16,046 bases of DNA, taken from the NCBI GenBank assembly GCA_013140465.1, contig JABFST010000016.1, positions 1 to 16,046 on the forward strand. The letters run 5' to 3'. This DNA is from Methylococcaceae bacterium (lineage in GTDB: Bacteria; Pseudomonadota; Gammaproteobacteria; Methylococcales; Methylomonadaceae). A model generated the notes under the pieces. It saw only the letters and a list, made by a program, of their open reading frames with translations, did no database searches and was not told the origin of the DNA. The translations under genes were made by a program, and so were the position numbers. Shown here piece by piece: positions 2,635 to 14,182 of the stretch (position 1 is the stretch's first letter; the number at the start of each line of letters is the position of its first letter).

Positions 2635-2658
2635 AACTGACTCGTGTCAGTTTTTTTT
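2635..2658 (+). terminator. Short intrinsic terminator after the DUF455-NnrS-DUF2721 unit
   Basis: A perfect 7-bp stem (AACTGAC at 2635-2641, GTCAGTT at 2646-2652) closes a TCGT tetraloop and runs directly into eight T residues (2651-2658). It begins five bases after the DUF2721-like stop codon. The stem is short and only moderately GC-rich, so termination may be partial. Its right arm and T-run are also part of upstream motif copy A. Confidence 0.6.
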
Positions 2659-2671
2659 ACATTAGTGTTCT
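2642..2671 (+). promoter_or_regulatory. Upstream motif copy A (candidate activator site, overlaps terminator)
   Basis: TCGTGTCAGTTTTTTTTACA at 2642-2661 is repeated base for base at 2761-2780. The site continues TTTACA (2656-2661), four bases, then TGTTCT, an imperfect match to a TTTACA-N4-TGTAAA palindrome. Unlike the other copies, it has a complementary left arm and so also works as a hairpin/T-run terminator. A regulatory role is inferred from the repetition and from copies C and D next to sigma-54 promoters. Confidence 0.45.
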
Positions 2672-2760
2672 AGGGTTTGGGGCTTACGCAGGTGCGTTTG
2701 GTCATTGATTTTAAATGATGTTTGGCTAGTGACAGGCGTATTAGGGGCATAACGCGATAG

Positions 2761-2790
2761 TCGTGTCAGTTTTTTTTACAGCAATGTTAG
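2761..2790 (+). promoter_or_regulatory. Upstream motif copy B (candidate activator site)
   Basis: This is an exact 20-base repeat of copy A, 119 bp downstream (TCGTGTCAGTTTTTTTTACA, 2761-2780). Four bases follow, then TGTTAG. It has no complementary left arm, so it cannot form the terminator hairpin of copy A. Its conservation therefore suggests a DNA-binding site rather than termination. It lies about 340 bp upstream of the predicted transcription start of the first PEP-CTERM gene. Confidence 0.5.
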
Positions 2791-3007
2791 GTGAGTCGCG
2801 TAAAGGCTGCCTATGGTGGCAATTGCTTAAGCCCATAAGGTATGATTTGTGTTACAACCCTACCTGATCCCAGTGTGTGTTGCTGTTAAAGTCGCTTAAA
2901 TTTTGGCGTTAGGCCGCAGCGTTAGAAAATAAGTTGAAAAGCCTTATACAATTCTAGGATAGTTGCGTAACGGCTGGGGCTTGGGTAATTGTAGGCGCAC
3001 TTAAGCC

Positions 3008-3035
3008 GTCAGCTTTTTTTACACAAATGTTTAGG
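3008..3035 (+). promoter_or_regulatory. Upstream motif copy C (candidate activator site, proximal to first PEP-CTERM promoter)
   Basis: GTCAGCTTTTTTTACA (3008-3023) is followed by CAAA and TGTTTA, so 3018-3033 forms an imperfect TTTACA-N4-TGTAAA palindrome. Its centre lies about 74 bp upstream of the -24 GG, near position -98. Copy D sits at the same distance from the second PEP-CTERM promoter. The fixed spacing and a partly palindromic site fit an enhancer for an NtrC-type activator. Confidence 0.6.
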
Positions 3036-3096
3036 CTTAAATTCTAGGTCCGATTTCGTTTTTGTAAGTGATTGCTAGATAAAGTGAATCTATTTT

Positions 3097-3112
3097 TGGC
3101 ATAACCATTGCT
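3097..3112 (+). promoter_or_regulatory. Sigma-54 (-24/-12) promoter of the first PEP-CTERM gene
   Basis: TGGCATAACCATTGCT has GG at 3098-3099 and GC at 3110-3111, separated by exactly ten bases, and closely fits the RpoN consensus TGGCAC-N5-TTGCW. Transcription would start near 3123, leaving a leader of about 47 nt. The same element, with the same spacing to the start codon within a base, precedes the second PEP-CTERM gene. Confidence 0.8.
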
Positions 3113-3169
3113 TGCTAATTTTAGTAGTTTTGCGGGTTAATTTTATTTTTCAATTTGAGGTAAAAGATT

Positions 3170-3829
3170 ATGAAAAAAGTTTTTAAATATTTGGCAGTGA
3201 TTGCACTGCTTACAGGCGCATCAGTTGCAAATGCTGGTGCTGTTTTGGCAAGCAGTGCTGGTGCTTCAGGTACTGTTGCCGTAACTGGGTTTAACGATGT
3301 CACACCAAACATTATCAGCATCGTGCTTGATTACAACACAGGCAGCACAATTGCTATAAATAGTGATCTATATGCTGGTCAAGAATACAAATTTAGCAGC
3401 ACATATAGCGTTAATGCACCTGGCTTGGGTGCGCTCGCCCTTGCCCCAACCTTCAATGTAATTGCCCAAACCAGCGTCGGCCCTAATCCTGCGCTTGCTT
3501 TAGAGACATTCTTTGCAAACATTTTCCCTGCCACAGTTTCAGGCAGCCCATTAGGGATTTTTACTCTAGGCAACAGCACATTGAGCTTGTCTAGCGTTAC
3601 TAGAGGCACTGCGGGTGCTCACACAACCTTAACCTTAGATGCAACAGTGCTTAGCGGTAACATTTCTACTGTACTGACCAATGTTGCGCTTTTACAAGGC
3701 ACTCCAGGTTCTGCTAATGCAACGTTTAGCAATGGCACCATCGCTGTTACGCCTGAACCTGCTACATTCTTGTTAATGGGTGCTGGCCTGGTAGGTTTGG
3801 CTGCATCTAAAAAAAGAAAAGCCGCTTAA
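3170..3829 (+). CDS. PEP-CTERM sorting domain protein, paralog 1
   Basis: The 219-aa protein has a Sec signal peptide (MKKVFKYLAVIALLTGASVANA, likely cleaved near residue 22) and a C-terminal PEP-CTERM tripartite signal. That signal is TPEP at residues 194-197, the helix ATFLLMGAGLVGLAA, and the basic tail SKKRKAA. Such proteins are exported by Sec and recognised at the Pro-Glu-Pro site by an exosortase, in organisms that make extracellular polysaccharide. The core of about 170 residues has no cysteine or tryptophan, is rich in Ser, Thr, Asn, Gly and Ala and poor in charge, and looks beta-rich; I recognise no domain in it. The GAGG at 3157-3160, nine bases before the ATG, supports the start. 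It is monocistronic by layout, with its own sigma-54 promoter and a strong terminator just after the stop. Paralog 2 at 5350 is clearly homologous along its length. A role in the cell-surface or floc matrix is inference. Confidence 0.92.
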   Translation: MKKVFKYLAVIALLTGASVANAGAVLASSAGASGTVAVTGFNDVTPNIISIVLDYNTGSTIAINSDLYAGQEYKFSSTYSVNAPGLGALALAPTFNVIAQTSVGPNPALALETFFANIFPATVSGSPLGIFTLGNSTLSLSSVTRGTAGAHTTLTLDATVLSGNISTVLTNVALLQGTPGSANATFSNGTIAVTPEPATFLLMGAGLVGLAASKKRKAA

Positions 3830-3846
3830 AACTAACTAAGAAGAAT

Positions 3847-3881
3847 AAAAGCCCCCTCAAGCTATTGAGGGGGCTTTTTTT
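3847..3881 (+). terminator. Strong intrinsic terminator after PEP-CTERM paralog 1
   Basis: GCCCCCTCAA (3851-3860) pairs perfectly with TTGAGGGGGC (3865-3874) around a GCTA loop, flanked by AAAA and seven T residues (3875-3881). Stem and sequence closely resemble the terminator after paralog 2, consistent with duplication of the whole transcription unit. Confidence 0.92.
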
Positions 3882-3912
3882 ATGCCATTGATAAAGTTAC
3901 AGGGGGATTTAC

Positions 3913-5022
3913 ATGGATGCCCATGTGCATAAAACAAAAAAAAAAGTAAAAGTCCGTGTGCAAACCAAGAAAGCCTTTAAAATTAAGGCAATGCCCATCA
4001 TTGCAGGGATAGTGGCGTTGTTGTTTTTTGGGGGGGTAGTCTTTTTTGCCAAGGCGGTACTGACCATTAAACCTGCTGCTGATTGGCAGGAAGCCAAGGC
4101 AAACACCGAGGCGAAAATCCAACTTCCTAAAGATGACGCAGCCCACCATACGCCTATGGAGTGGTGGTACTATAACGGACACCTTAAAACCGCATCAGGT
4201 AAGCGCTACAGCTTCCACTATACGGTTTTTTTGGTCAGCGGGCTAAGCAACCACACGGTGAGCCATTTGTCGCTTGCCGACCATCAATTACAAAAAAACT
4301 ATACCGCCGAAAAACGGACGGCGGGTGGCAGTTCAGATGCTGCCAATCCTAACGGATTTGAGTTTAACCAATCAGATTGGCTGATGTCTGGGGCAAATGG
4401 CTTAGACCACTTAAAAGCAAACGCCGAACCCTTTGCCTTTGATTTAAAACTGGCGGCTAGCCGCGCACCTATCCTGCATGGCGACAAAGGCATCATCAGT
4501 ATGAAAAATGCCGGCGACAGCTATTATTACTCGCGCTCGCGCCTAGATGTTGTGGGTACGCTTAATATCCATAACAGCACTGAAGCCGTTACCGGAATTG
4601 CTTGGTTTGACCACCAGTGGGGCGACTTGAGGACGACAGCAATCACATGGAATTGGTTTAGCCTGATGCTAGATGATGGCTCGGACATCATGATTTACCA
4701 GTTTTACGATAATGCTGGCAACCAACTGATGAATATTGGGACGCTGACCAAAGACAGTGGCTCGGTAGCATTAAGCGATAGCGATATCCATTTAAGCCCT
4801 TTGGAAAATTGGGTCAGCAAAAGATCAGGCGTGACTTATCCAGTGCAATGGCAATTGGATTTGCCCACACAACATGTTTCGGTGACAACCAAGGCAGTGG
4901 TGAATGATAGCGAACAGGATGCCAGGCTAACAACCTACAATGTCTATTGGGAAGGCGCGGTCAATGTGGCGGGTAGCCACACGGGGCAGGGGTTTGTGGA
5001 AATGAATAAGTTTAAGCATTAG
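3913..5022 (+). CDS. Membrane-anchored CrtC/AttH-type lipocalin-like protein
   Basis: The 369-aa protein begins with a very basic segment (about 26 residues, many Lys), then a single hydrophobic helix at about 28-46, and so should be an inner-membrane protein with its bulk in the periplasm. The rest carries the hallmarks of the CrtC/AttH lipocalin-like superfamily: WWYYNGHL at 84-91 followed by FHYTVFL, WFDHQWGD at 231-238 followed by WNWFSLMLDDG, and a C-terminal YWEGAV at 345-350. Relatives are often annotated as carotenoid 1,2-hydratase, but most have no shown hydratase activity, and no carotenoid gene is nearby, so I do not assign that reaction. Binding of a hydrophobic ligand is plausible from the fold. 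AGGGGG at 3901-3906 supports the ATG. The gene begins only about 30 bp after the terminator of PEP-CTERM paralog 1 and has no visible promoter, so it may depend on read-through. An A10 run and a G7 run lie in its first 125 bp. Confidence 0.8.
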   Translation: MDAHVHKTKKKVKVRVQTKKAFKIKAMPIIAGIVALLFFGGVVFFAKAVLTIKPAADWQEAKANTEAKIQLPKDDAAHHTPMEWWYYNGHLKTASGKRYSFHYTVFLVSGLSNHTVSHLSLADHQLQKNYTAEKRTAGGSSDAANPNGFEFNQSDWLMSGANGLDHLKANAEPFAFDLKLAASRAPILHGDKGIISMKNAGDSYYYSRSRLDVVGTLNIHNSTEAVTGIAWFDHQWGDLRTTAITWNWFSLMLDDGSDIMIYQFYDNAGNQLMNIGTLTKDSGSVALSDSDIHLSPLENWVSKRSGVTYPVQWQLDLPTQHVSVTTKAVVNDSEQDARLTTYNVYWEGAVNVAGSHTGQGFVEMNKFKH

Positions 5023-5030
5023 CAAAGGCG

Positions 5031-5060
5031 GTGTTTGCGGCAACGCAAACACGTTTAAGC
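5031..5060 (+). terminator. Hairpin after the CrtC/AttH-like gene, possible weak terminator
   Basis: GTGTTTGCG (5031-5039) and CGCAAACAC (5044-5052) form a perfect 9-bp stem around the stable tetraloop GCAA, eight bases after the stop codon. The following GTTTAAGCCCCTTTT has only a broken T-tract, so it may act as a 3' stabilising stem or a weak terminator. Confidence 0.5.
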
Positions 5061-5131
5061 CCCTTTTCGTGAAGCGTAGCTGAATCAGCCCCATTATTGG
5101 ATTGGCAAATCACTAAATAAGAGCAAAAAAC

Positions 5132-5147
5132 TTTACATTCGTGTAAA
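5132..5147. promoter_or_regulatory. Perfect palindrome TTTACATTCGTGTAAA (candidate activator site E)
   Basis: The two 6-bp arms are exactly complementary around TTCG. This is the symmetrical form of the half-symmetrical sites A-D, and it lies 66 bp (about six helical turns) upstream of copy D. It lacks the GTCAG lead. A dimer-binding site for the same regulator is the simplest reading. Confidence 0.5.
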
Positions 5148-5187
5148 ATAAAGCCGCCACTTGTGTAGTAGGGTTGGTCAATGATAC

Positions 5188-5213
5188 GTCAGGTTTTTTT
5201 ACACAAATGGGTA
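5188..5213 (+). promoter_or_regulatory. Upstream motif copy D (candidate activator site, proximal to second PEP-CTERM promoter)
   Basis: GTCAGGTTTTTTTACA (5188-5203) is followed by CAAA and TGGGTA. The palindrome centre lies about 75 bp before the -24 GG, near -98, matching copy C within one base. Copies C and D also share ACACAAATG after the T-run. Confidence 0.6.
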
Positions 5214-5277
5214 AGCTTTAAGCTTAAAAACGATTTATTTTTTTGTAAGTGATTGCCAGCAAATGTAAATATTTTTT

Positions 5278-5293
5278 TGGTATAACATTTGCT
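5278..5293 (+). promoter_or_regulatory. Sigma-54 (-24/-12) promoter of the second PEP-CTERM gene
   Basis: TGGTATAACATTTGCT has GG at 5279-5280 and GC at 5291-5292 with exactly ten bases between. Predicted transcription start is near 5304, giving a 46-nt leader. It differs from the first promoter at few positions and keeps all four invariant bases. Confidence 0.77.
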
Positions 5294-5349: not shown

Positions 5350-5988
5350 ATGAAAAAAGTTTTTAAATATGCGGCGGTTATGCTGCTGCTAACAGGTGCA
5401 TCAGCTGCAAATGCTGGCGCGATATTGGCGAGTAGTACAGGCGCAACAGGCAACGTGAGCGTAACTGGATTTGCTGACGGCACTCCAAGCACGATTGATA
5501 TTTTGTTGACTTACACCAACAACCCCAACATCGACGTGACTAGCCAGCTTTATGTTGGACAACAATATAATTTCAACAGCACTTTCAATATTGTTGGCTT
5601 TAACAACGCCAATCCTAAATTTACTGTGACTGCACAAACTTCAGTCGGAATCGGTTCTACAGGCCTAAACCCATTCTTTAGCTCGATTTTCCCAGCTTCT
5701 GGTTCGCCACTGGGTCAATTTCAATTGGGTTCTAGCTTATTGAATTTGTTGTCTGTAACTAGCGGCGTTAGCGGCGGCAATGCCACTTTGTTATTGAGCA
5801 CCCAAGTTGTTAGCGGCAATATTTCTAACAATTTAACTAATATTGCGATTGGTCAAGGCCACCCCGGCACTGCAAATGCAACCTTTGACAACGGCACTAT
5901 TACCGTTACTCCAGAACCTGCTACCTTCTTGTTGATGGGTGCAGGCTTGGTGGGCTTGGCAGCAGCTAAAAAAAGAAAAGCTGCTTAA
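5350..5988 (+). CDS. PEP-CTERM sorting domain protein, paralog 2
   Basis: The 212-aa protein starts with almost the same signal peptide as paralog 1 (MKKVFKYAAVMLLLTGASAANA, cleavage likely near residue 22). It ends in TPEP at residues 187-190, the same ATFLLMGAGLVGLAA helix and a KKRKAA tail. Shared core blocks include VTGF, QTSVG, GSPLG, SGNIS, LTN and ANATF, so the two are full-length paralogs rather than proteins that merely share sorting signals. It too has no cysteine or tryptophan, few charges, and is rich in Ser, Thr, Asn and Gly. Start support is the GAGG ten bases upstream, inside a 36-base stretch identical in both genes (5335-5370 here). It has its own sigma-54 promoter and terminator. 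The exosortase and the polysaccharide genes it would depend on are not in the window. Specific function is unknown. Confidence 0.92.
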   Translation: MKKVFKYAAVMLLLTGASAANAGAILASSTGATGNVSVTGFADGTPSTIDILLTYTNNPNIDVTSQLYVGQQYNFNSTFNIVGFNNANPKFTVTAQTSVGIGSTGLNPFFSSIFPASGSPLGQFQLGSSLLNLLSVTSGVSGGNATLLLSTQVVSGNISNNLTNIAIGQGHPGTANATFDNGTITVTPEPATFLLMGAGLVGLAAAKKRKAA

Positions 5989-13354: not shown

Positions 13355-14182
13355 TTATAATTCTCCAACAGTCTGTTGCGTGCTATCTAAGGTTTGGCGT
13401 ATGGATGTCAGCAAGGCAATGATTTCGTTTTGGGCTAGTTCGGGGTCATCCAAATGCGCTTCAATTTTGCTGATGAGCGCACTGCCAATTACCACGCCGT
13501 CGCCTAAATGGGCTATAGCATTGGCGGTGTCAGCATCTTTGACACCAAAACCGATGGCAATAGGTAGTTGGGTGTTGGCCCGGATTTGTTGCAGTTTGTG
13601 TTCAACATCGGCAATGTTTAAATGCCCTGCACCCGTAACCCCTTTTAACGACACATAATAAATGTAGCCGCTGCCCGCCGCATCCATTTTTTGTACACGT
13701 TCGCTGCTGCTGTTAGGGGCCAACAGAAAAATAGGGTCTATGCCCCGCGCTTTTAATAAGGCAGTGCATTCTGCACCTTCTTCAGGCGGCAAATCGACCG
13801 TGAGTACACCGTCTATGTCGGCGCGTTGGGCGGCATTGGCAAAACCTTCGTAAGTCATGGCTTCAATGGGGTTGAGATAACCCATCAGCACCAGCGGTGT
13901 GGTTTGGTTGGTTTTGCGGAACTCCGCAGCCACTTCCAAAGTGCGGCGTAGGCTCATTTTATGGGCCAAGGCGCGTTCGCTGGCGCGTTGGATCACCGGG
14001 CCGTCTGCCATAGGGTCAGAGAACGGTACGCCCAGTTCGATCACGTCCACACCCGCAGCGACCATCGCGTGCATAAGTGGCACGGTGAAGTGCGGGTTAG
14101 GGTCGCCCGCCGTGACAAACGGGATTAACGCCTTGCGTCCGTTTTGGGCCAGTTCGGCAAAAGTGGCGGCTAATCGGCTCAT
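13355..14182 (-). CDS. trpA: Tryptophan synthase alpha chain
   Basis: TrpA cleaves indole-3-glycerol phosphate to indole and glyceraldehyde 3-phosphate within the TrpA2B2 complex. The 275-aa TIM-barrel protein carries the catalytic residues Glu49 ([10 protein letters not shown]) and Asp60 (MADGP) at the same numbers as E. coli TrpA when the start is placed at the ATG at 14182. AGAGG eight bases before that ATG supports this choice. The frame stays open 34 codons further up, into the end of trpB, but that part is unlike TrpA and is rejected. Phosphate-binding glycines are seen in GFGVKD and GVVIGSAL. It follows trpB after 31 bp and precedes accD by two bases. Confidence 0.97.

Follow-up and report, generated by a model that had tools for sequence, protein, structure and literature searches.

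A study by Haft et al. 2006 (PMC1569441) describes, before 99 of 167 proteobacterial PEP-CTERM genes, a 17-nt motif that has TTTACA at its 3' end and in some cases occurs more than once, with a σ54 motif following it at a mean distance of 62.8 nt (standard deviation (S.D.) 10.6, range 32-92). This 17-nt 'motif 1' was predicted there to be the binding site of PrsR. A related order of elements, activator site, integration host factor (IHF) site and promoter, is found in IHF-assisted σ54 promoters of the NtrC/NifA type; IHF bends DNA, and its placement between an enhancer and an RpoN promoter is a common arrangement (PMC7962754). One PEP-CTERM gene, pepA of Aquincola tertiaricarbonis, is reported to be RpoN1-dependent, with a mapped -24/-12 start and a predicted upstream enhancer (PMC9850573); its layout of -24/-12 promoter and upstream enhancer is the one predicted here, and the word IHF is absent from the accessible text of that paper. 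Here, we describe two PEP-CTERM genes and their control regions in a 16,046-nucleotide stretch of DNA, hereafter the window, that constitutes positions 1 to 16,046 of contig JABFST010000016.1 in the Methylococcaceae bacterium assembly GCA_013140465.1. We present evidence that four copies of a short motif in these regions are very probably PrsR sites, and that the distance from such sites to their σ54 promoters is quantised in single turns of DNA.

The exact 16-base motif GTCAGNTTTTTTTACA occurs on the forward strand at 2646, 2765, 3008 and 5188 and nowhere else in the window, as a sequence-only reading of the window had stated. At up to three mismatches the window holds five matches where 0.79 are expected, a count reached in 0 of 200 shuffles; the fifth, at 13529, has three mismatches and is the next best after the four exact copies. 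The four copies are real and non-random. Their proposed confinement to PEP-CTERM control regions also holds, all four exact copies being intergenic and situated upstream of one or other PEP-CTERM gene: copies A, B and C precede gene 1 (3170..3829, + strand, 219 amino acids (aa); TIGR02595 22.2 bits against a cut-off of 16, PF07589 over cut-off), and copy D lies upstream of its paralogue, gene 2 (5350..5988, + strand, 212 aa; TIGR02595 22.1 bits, cut-off 16). Compared with the text description rather than the logo letters of the published 'motif 1 / motif 2' region (PMC1569441), the window agrees in several respects. Its 17-nt unit ends in TTTACA likewise, and its spacers of 73 and 74 fall inside the published range. 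The upstream intergenic regions of 539 nt (gene 1) and 327 nt (gene 2), taken from open reading frame (ORF) coordinates, match the large (>200 nt) regions described, and the host encodes PrsR. The sequence-only reading gave no published sequence for comparison; the 2006 study describes one. Both the kind of site and its assignment to PrsR were already predicted at that time, and the window is a fresh instance.

The reference set for the box comprises at least 119 sites on 118 contig stretches, each with the exact motif followed at 55-85 bases by a required TGGN9TGC. The 80 source records listed are mostly Gammaproteobacteria (Colwellia, Alteromonas, Hahella, Methylococcaceae and others), with a few Burkholderiales and Alphaproteobacteria and a single Pedobacter; no ORF follows the Pedobacter site, a possible chance match. 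Judged against this set, the 16-base motif stands in its sequence and its copies, and its length requires correction: the true unit is 17 bp, since the preceding base is T in 102 of the 119 sites elsewhere. That T is the sole strongly conserved column adjoining the motif pattern among the 119 listed sites, and no strong conservation is found in them directly 3' of TTTACA. In the window, copies A and B have this T ahead of GTCAG, and copies C and D have a C there. The predicted PrsR-type boxes, all on the + strand, are therefore box A (2645..2661, the perfect 17-mer TGTCAGTTTTTTTTACA, centred about -470 from the predicted start of gene 1), box B (2764..2780, also a perfect 17-mer, centre about -351), box C (3007..3023, CGTCAGCTTTTTTTACA, spacer 73 to the -24 element) and box D (5187..5203, CGTCAGGTTTTTTTACA, spacer 74). 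A and B are distal, C and D proximal.

The box reads TGTCAG-N5-TTTACA, a 17-bp imperfect dyad in which four of six position pairs are complementary. The same 6+5+6 arrangement is found in the NtrC box, TGCACC-N5-GGTGCA. The promoters of the window differ from the NtrC/NifA type in recognition sequence and regulon, and their geometry is fixed across many genera, with the box nearly always in one orientation. A second dyad arm, TTTACA-N4-TGTNNA, had been said to follow every copy and is rejected here: within the window only copy C matches it in full, A and B having TGT alone and D having TGG, and elsewhere TGT stands at this place in 2 of 119 sites, no more often than at offsets nearby. Of 63 sites in a Methylococcales set, 5 have TGT four bases past TTTACA, three of them the window's own.

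Both proximal boxes are followed by a strong σ54 -24/-12 element, TGGCATAACCATTGC at 3097..3111 (+ strand, score 18.7) and TGGTATAACATTTGC at 5278..5292 (+ strand, score 18.2), each above the median of 17.5 for the 119 reference boxes. With the GG of these elements taken as -25/-24, which gives predicted starts at 3123 and 5304, boxes C and D are centred at -108 and -109; the earlier estimate of about -98 falls one helical turn short, and both belong to the 74-bp spacer class.

While the 2006 study gives the spacer as a mean with S.D. (PMC1569441), it resolves here into helix-turn classes. The TTTACA-to-TGG spacers of the 119 listed sites fall at 60-66 bp (84 sites), 71-76 bp (27) and 83-85 bp (8), and none lies at 55-59, 67-70 or 77-82. 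Fifty whole genomes, drawn from those holding sites L118-L189 with some left out, overlap the 119-site set and are each known for one forward site; in these, the range 24-54 holds only spacers of 50, 53, 53, 53 and 54, and the range 86-116 only 86, 92, 97 and 106. Within 24-116, 94 of 99 spacers lie within 2.5 bp of a peak, against about 47% by chance with peak positions set after inspection of the data; those off the peaks are 50, 60, 60, 70 and 92. Furthermore, 32 Methylococcales promoters gathered by the motif alone (35 rows minus three farther tandem copies, with the window's two paralogues and close relatives included) show their strongest periodicity at 10.65 bp (R=0.88; maximum in 5000 jitter nulls, 0.64). 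Three of these promoters have spacers of 94-95 and three of 116-117. A class-wide search for spacers of 86-116 gave two matches in 369 genomes (105 and 97), too few for extending the series, and box-to-start-codon distances show no periodicity (n=61, R ≤0.11). The spacer is quantised in single DNA turns, at about 53, 63, 74, 84 and 95 bp.

On one strand between box and promoter, conserved columns fit the IHF consensus WATCAANNNNTTR, a string that occurs alongside IHF in 15 papers. Allowing one mismatch on either strand, an IHF-like site is present in 66 of the 119 spacers, compared with 21.0 (S.D. 3.9, maximum 33) in 60 dinucleotide shuffles. When only one strand and positions -34..-30 before TGG are counted, 46 of 119 have such a site where 1.35 are expected from shuffles of the same bases (maximum 6 in 200), and 24 of the sites are placed exactly at -32. 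Among 32 strong Methylococcales boxes, defined by a score of at least 12 within 700 bp and partly different from the 32 promoters used for phasing, six, including that of window gene 1, have an IHF-like site at -34..-30, against 0.3 expected. In all three spacer classes (63, 74 and 84) the site keeps to about -32 relative to the promoter; as it is fixed relative to the promoter, the distance from box to site steps by one turn. In the window, the site before gene 1, TAAGTGATTGCTA as read on the + strand, occupies 3065..3077 on the - strand with one mismatch to YAANNNNTTGATW; that before gene 2, TAAGTGATTGCCA at 5246..5258 on the - strand, is conserved between the two promoters. Each lies 32 bp before TGG.

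The sequence-only reading had expected the motif to be non-random genome-wide and enriched before PEP-CTERM genes, and both expectations were borne out. In 61 genomes, the host and 60 relatives that we infer to be Methylococcales, the exact motif occurs 64 times and the reversed pattern never; 58 of the occurrences are in 24 of the 60 relatives, and six are in the host. Of 106 ORFs downstream of the reference sites (complete, 60-1200 aa; 13 of the 119 sites had none), 62 match PEP-CTERM at an E-value of 0.01; among 95 control ORFs taken from these stretches the family lies outside the 25 commonest, and at most 4 can therefore match. Some further downstream ORFs end in PEP-like tails, as judged by eye. 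PrsR, scored as TIGR02915 over cut-off, was found in 29 of the 61 genomes: 22 of the 25 that bear the motif and 7 of the 36 that do not. The host PrsR, on contig C36, scores 708 bits (cut-off 502.6) and adjoins a gene over the exosortase cut-off; none of its three scanned neighbours is named PrsK, no search having been aimed at PrsK or PrsT. RpoN is likewise over cut-off in the host, as is IHF-alpha (160.1 bits, cut-off 120.25).

These results bear on one rival account of the four copies, which is that they are a functionless by-product of duplication and T-rich low complexity. The promoters of genes 1 and 2 are identical at 130 of 163 positions and the proteins, of 219 and 212 residues, have 135 in common, so that C and D, preceding tandem paralogues, are not independent observations, and A and B contain the same 17-mer. 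The reversed pattern, in contrast, is absent where the motif is found 64 times, and one combination of box, spacer classes and gene type is seen again and again across the 119 listed sites, 117 of which have spacers non-redundant at 62% identity. As a general account, duplication is already contradicted, and we consider it extremely improbable.

The co-occurrence with PrsR, the enrichment before PEP-CTERM genes and the prediction of 2006 together support the proposal that the motif is a PrsR-type recognition site. From the sequence evidence, it is very probable that PrsR acts at this motif and switches on PEP-CTERM genes by way of σ54 polymerase, probably through IHF-assisted looping that depends on the face of the helix. 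Phosphorylated PrsR, an NtrC-type two-component activator of the PEP-CTERM/exosortase system, would bind the proximal box; IHF, bound about 32 bp before the -24 element, would bend the DNA so that PrsR meets σ54 RNA polymerase; and this contact would open the promoter of each PEP-CTERM gene. The distal copies, A and B, may raise the local concentration of PrsR or aid its assembly. Such a loop would be short and stiff, and the box would therefore be confined to one face of the helix, with its distance to the promoter quantised in turns. The motif, the genes, the phasing, the IHF-like site, the polarity of the box and the pairing of distal with in-phase proximal copies were each computed directly, and they suggest that PrsR promoters are probably one stereospecific machine, with an oriented box, at least five turn-quantised classes (~53 to 95 bp), an IHF bend locked at about -32, and optional distal boxes accompanied by an in-phase proximal box.

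Several observations weigh against this reading. Three of the 25 motif-bearing genomes lack a detected PrsR (G002, 93% complete; G005, 99%; G049, 87%), and 28 of 63 Methylococcales sites have no σ54 box scoring at least 8 within 20-130 bp, only some of these being distal or at contig ends. The only site of G005 is without such a box, its best lying 640 bp away. At up to two mismatches the host holds 26 matches to the motif and 19 to the reversed pattern, so that the relaxed motif alone does not discriminate. Among host PEP-CTERM genes over cut-off that have upstream sequence, 3 of 13 have this promoter; most therefore lie outside the regulon, and other regulation exists. An IHF-like match at one mismatch is missing from 73 of the 119 sites, the weak site before window gene 2 has two mismatches, and the five spacers of 50-54 bp include such a match (at most one mismatch) once only, at -22. 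In ihf mutants of Geobacter sulfurreducens, the exosortase substrate gene GSU1943 is up about 3-fold (PMC7962754), the wrong direction for IHF-assisted activation if the GSU1943 promoter is of this type. Finally, copy A may belong to a terminator.

The first of these points would be accommodated if the box belonged to another σ54 activator, with PrsR co-occurring only as both typify exopolysaccharide-producing bacteria, and about a dozen further NtrC-like host proteins, scoring below the PrsR cut-off, could supply one. Nevertheless, a single host protein is over that cut-off, and it is encoded beside an exosortase gene; the distribution of PrsR between motif-bearing and motif-free genomes favours it, and a published phylogenetic profile picked PrsR from 13 genomes (PMC1569441). 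We regard a different activator as improbable. The points concerning IHF raise a more serious alternative, that what lies at -32 is a promoter element rich in A/T or bent by its own sequence, or a site that depends on HU, with phasing then arising from intrinsic bending. The A/T-rich flanks of the -24 element, the weakness of the match in many sites and the absence of activation loss in the Geobacter data (PMC7962754) are consistent with this possibility. It is disfavoured by the agreement of the columns with the IHF consensus in spacing, on one strand and at a fixed place, by the excess over shuffles of the same bases, and by the frequency with which IHF sites lie between enhancers and RpoN promoters (PMC7962754), and we hold it to be a tentative alternative, doubtful though stronger than the others considered here.

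As for copy A, a terminator-like hairpin at 2635-2652 (seven pairs, three of them G-C, loop of 4) runs into its T-run, and the copy starts 14 bases past the stop codon of the upstream ORF. A weaker hairpin, at 2752-2766, stands ahead of copy B, and a terminator scan of the region gave 9 such sites against 4.1 in shuffles. Copy A, and B less clearly, could thus be the T-run of the upstream gene's intrinsic terminator, instead of or besides an activator site. In both A and B, nonetheless, each of the 16 specified positions of the box is intact, TGT and ACA among them, a constraint that termination would not impose, and distal copies recur before strong σ54 promoters in relatives, as compared by boxes alone; a terminator is an unlikely explanation. 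That the hairpin at 2635-2652 and box A share one T-run suggests a possible double use of sequence.

Besides the element at 3097, the intergenic region before gene 1 holds no σ54 box scoring above 3.0, and copies A and B have no scoring σ54 promoter of their own. A candidate promoter for copy A, TGGCTAGTGACAGGC at 2723, would be in phase at a spacer of 61 but was rejected on its score of -1.3, the weakest reference box scoring 6.1. Rather, A and B accompany the in-phase proximal copy C, an arrangement that recurs elsewhere: all eight examined promoters with the exact motif only far away (three more distant boxes were left out) carry a proximal copy of one or two mismatches, with spacers of 62, 62, 73, 74, 84, 84, 84 and 86. 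By comparison, the best match has at least five mismatches in 109 of 110 random windows of equal size. At one locus (L060) the distal copy points the opposite way. Extra copies with at most two mismatches within 600 bp upstream number 11 on the same strand and six on the other, against three and one in a control stretch, and 15 of the 119 listed sites have an extra upstream copy. These comparisons lead us to infer that A and B are auxiliary sites, with a terminator role competing in the case of A. Helical phasing between tandem copies was considered and rejected, as the same-strand distances (110, 111, 114, 114, 143, 143, 146, 181, 181, 182 and 230) have no clear 10.5-bp phase (n=10 at ≤200). 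Triple tandem boxes are present at G001:C31:14837-14936 (L249), in steps of exactly 42 bp, and at G055:C1:1871525-1871590 (L072), in steps of exactly 25 bp.

The box is also strongly polar. Across the 50 genomes TTTACA points toward the promoter in 90 sites and TGTCAG in three, for which the fair comparison is 40 against 3, because each genome was picked for one forward site. At two of these three inverted sites the same box also faces a divergent forward promoter. In one (G468:C11:845861-845876; L264, L299) a single box lies between divergent σ54-like boxes with spacers of 53 and 61, and in the other (G461:C1:239091-239106; L263) the spacers are 62 and 70; a single box so placed is possibly a shared enhancer.

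Elsewhere in the host, the two exact copies outside the window are 149 bp apart on contig C246 (2812-2976), at a contig end with no gene after them on the contig. One-mismatch copies number five, on C22, C253, C329, C139 and C401. Those on C22 and C253 precede PEP-CTERM genes with good σ54 boxes, the C253 gene having its box at spacer 96, its start on C253 and its end on C460, two contigs that share about 180 bp of near-identical sequence. Five host PEP-CTERM promoters are of the motif type, with spacers of 73, 74, 74, 61 and 96 and proximal boxes that have 1, 1, 4, 3 and 1 mismatches to the 17-mer, the last three being outside the window. The C329 copy lies inside an ORF and is probably a chance match. 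The copy at C139:2537-2552 is about 270 bp before a csrA-like gene (by eye), where the best σ54 box scores 7.1, and also lies beside a divergent PEP-CTERM-like gene below cut-off. The copy at C401:1333-1348 lies just behind a PEP-CTERM gene and faces away from the nearest gene that it could serve; it was rejected as an activator site, the best σ54 box before a servable gene scoring 2.9. In the window itself, a CrtC / lipocalin-like gene (3913..5022, + strand; PF07143 and PF17186 over cut-off) is situated between the two PEP-CTERM paralogues.

Box and σ54 element also precede some genes that are not PEP-CTERM genes (L138, L140, L147, L187, L212, L230, L234). Their products comprise a subtilase, RTX-repeat proteins, a PilZ protein, and four proteins (L147, L187, L212 and L234) that have twin-arginine-like N-termini but match no Pfam family. 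The PrsR regulon may extend beyond the sorted proteins.

The accessible text of the 2006 study (PMC1569441) contains none of the terms 'phasing', 'host factor', 'palindrom' and 'inverted repeat', and 'helical' only in one reference title. Within the open-licence PubMed Central literature, 'PEP-CTERM' occurs together with 'TTTACA' in that paper only, together with the abbreviation 'IHF' in none and together with the full name 'integration host factor' in three, and we found there no earlier description of a helix-spaced layout in which a probable DNA-bending site separates switch from promoter. The combination of box, IHF site and in-phase spacing provides a precise, searchable definition of PrsR-controlled promoters, by which a regulon of surface proteins linked to the floc and biofilm matrix becomes predictable in many genomes. 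A 20-year-old bioinformatic prediction is thereby made directly testable: on the present reading, a 5-bp insertion would kill the promoter and a 10- or 11-bp insertion would not. For the biology of σ54, these promoters offer a naturally occurring set of enhancer loops that are short and phased and have an IHF-like bend at a fixed place; if the reading is true, they would amount to the helix-phasing experiment on σ54 enhancers, carried out in nature as a series across a whole regulon.

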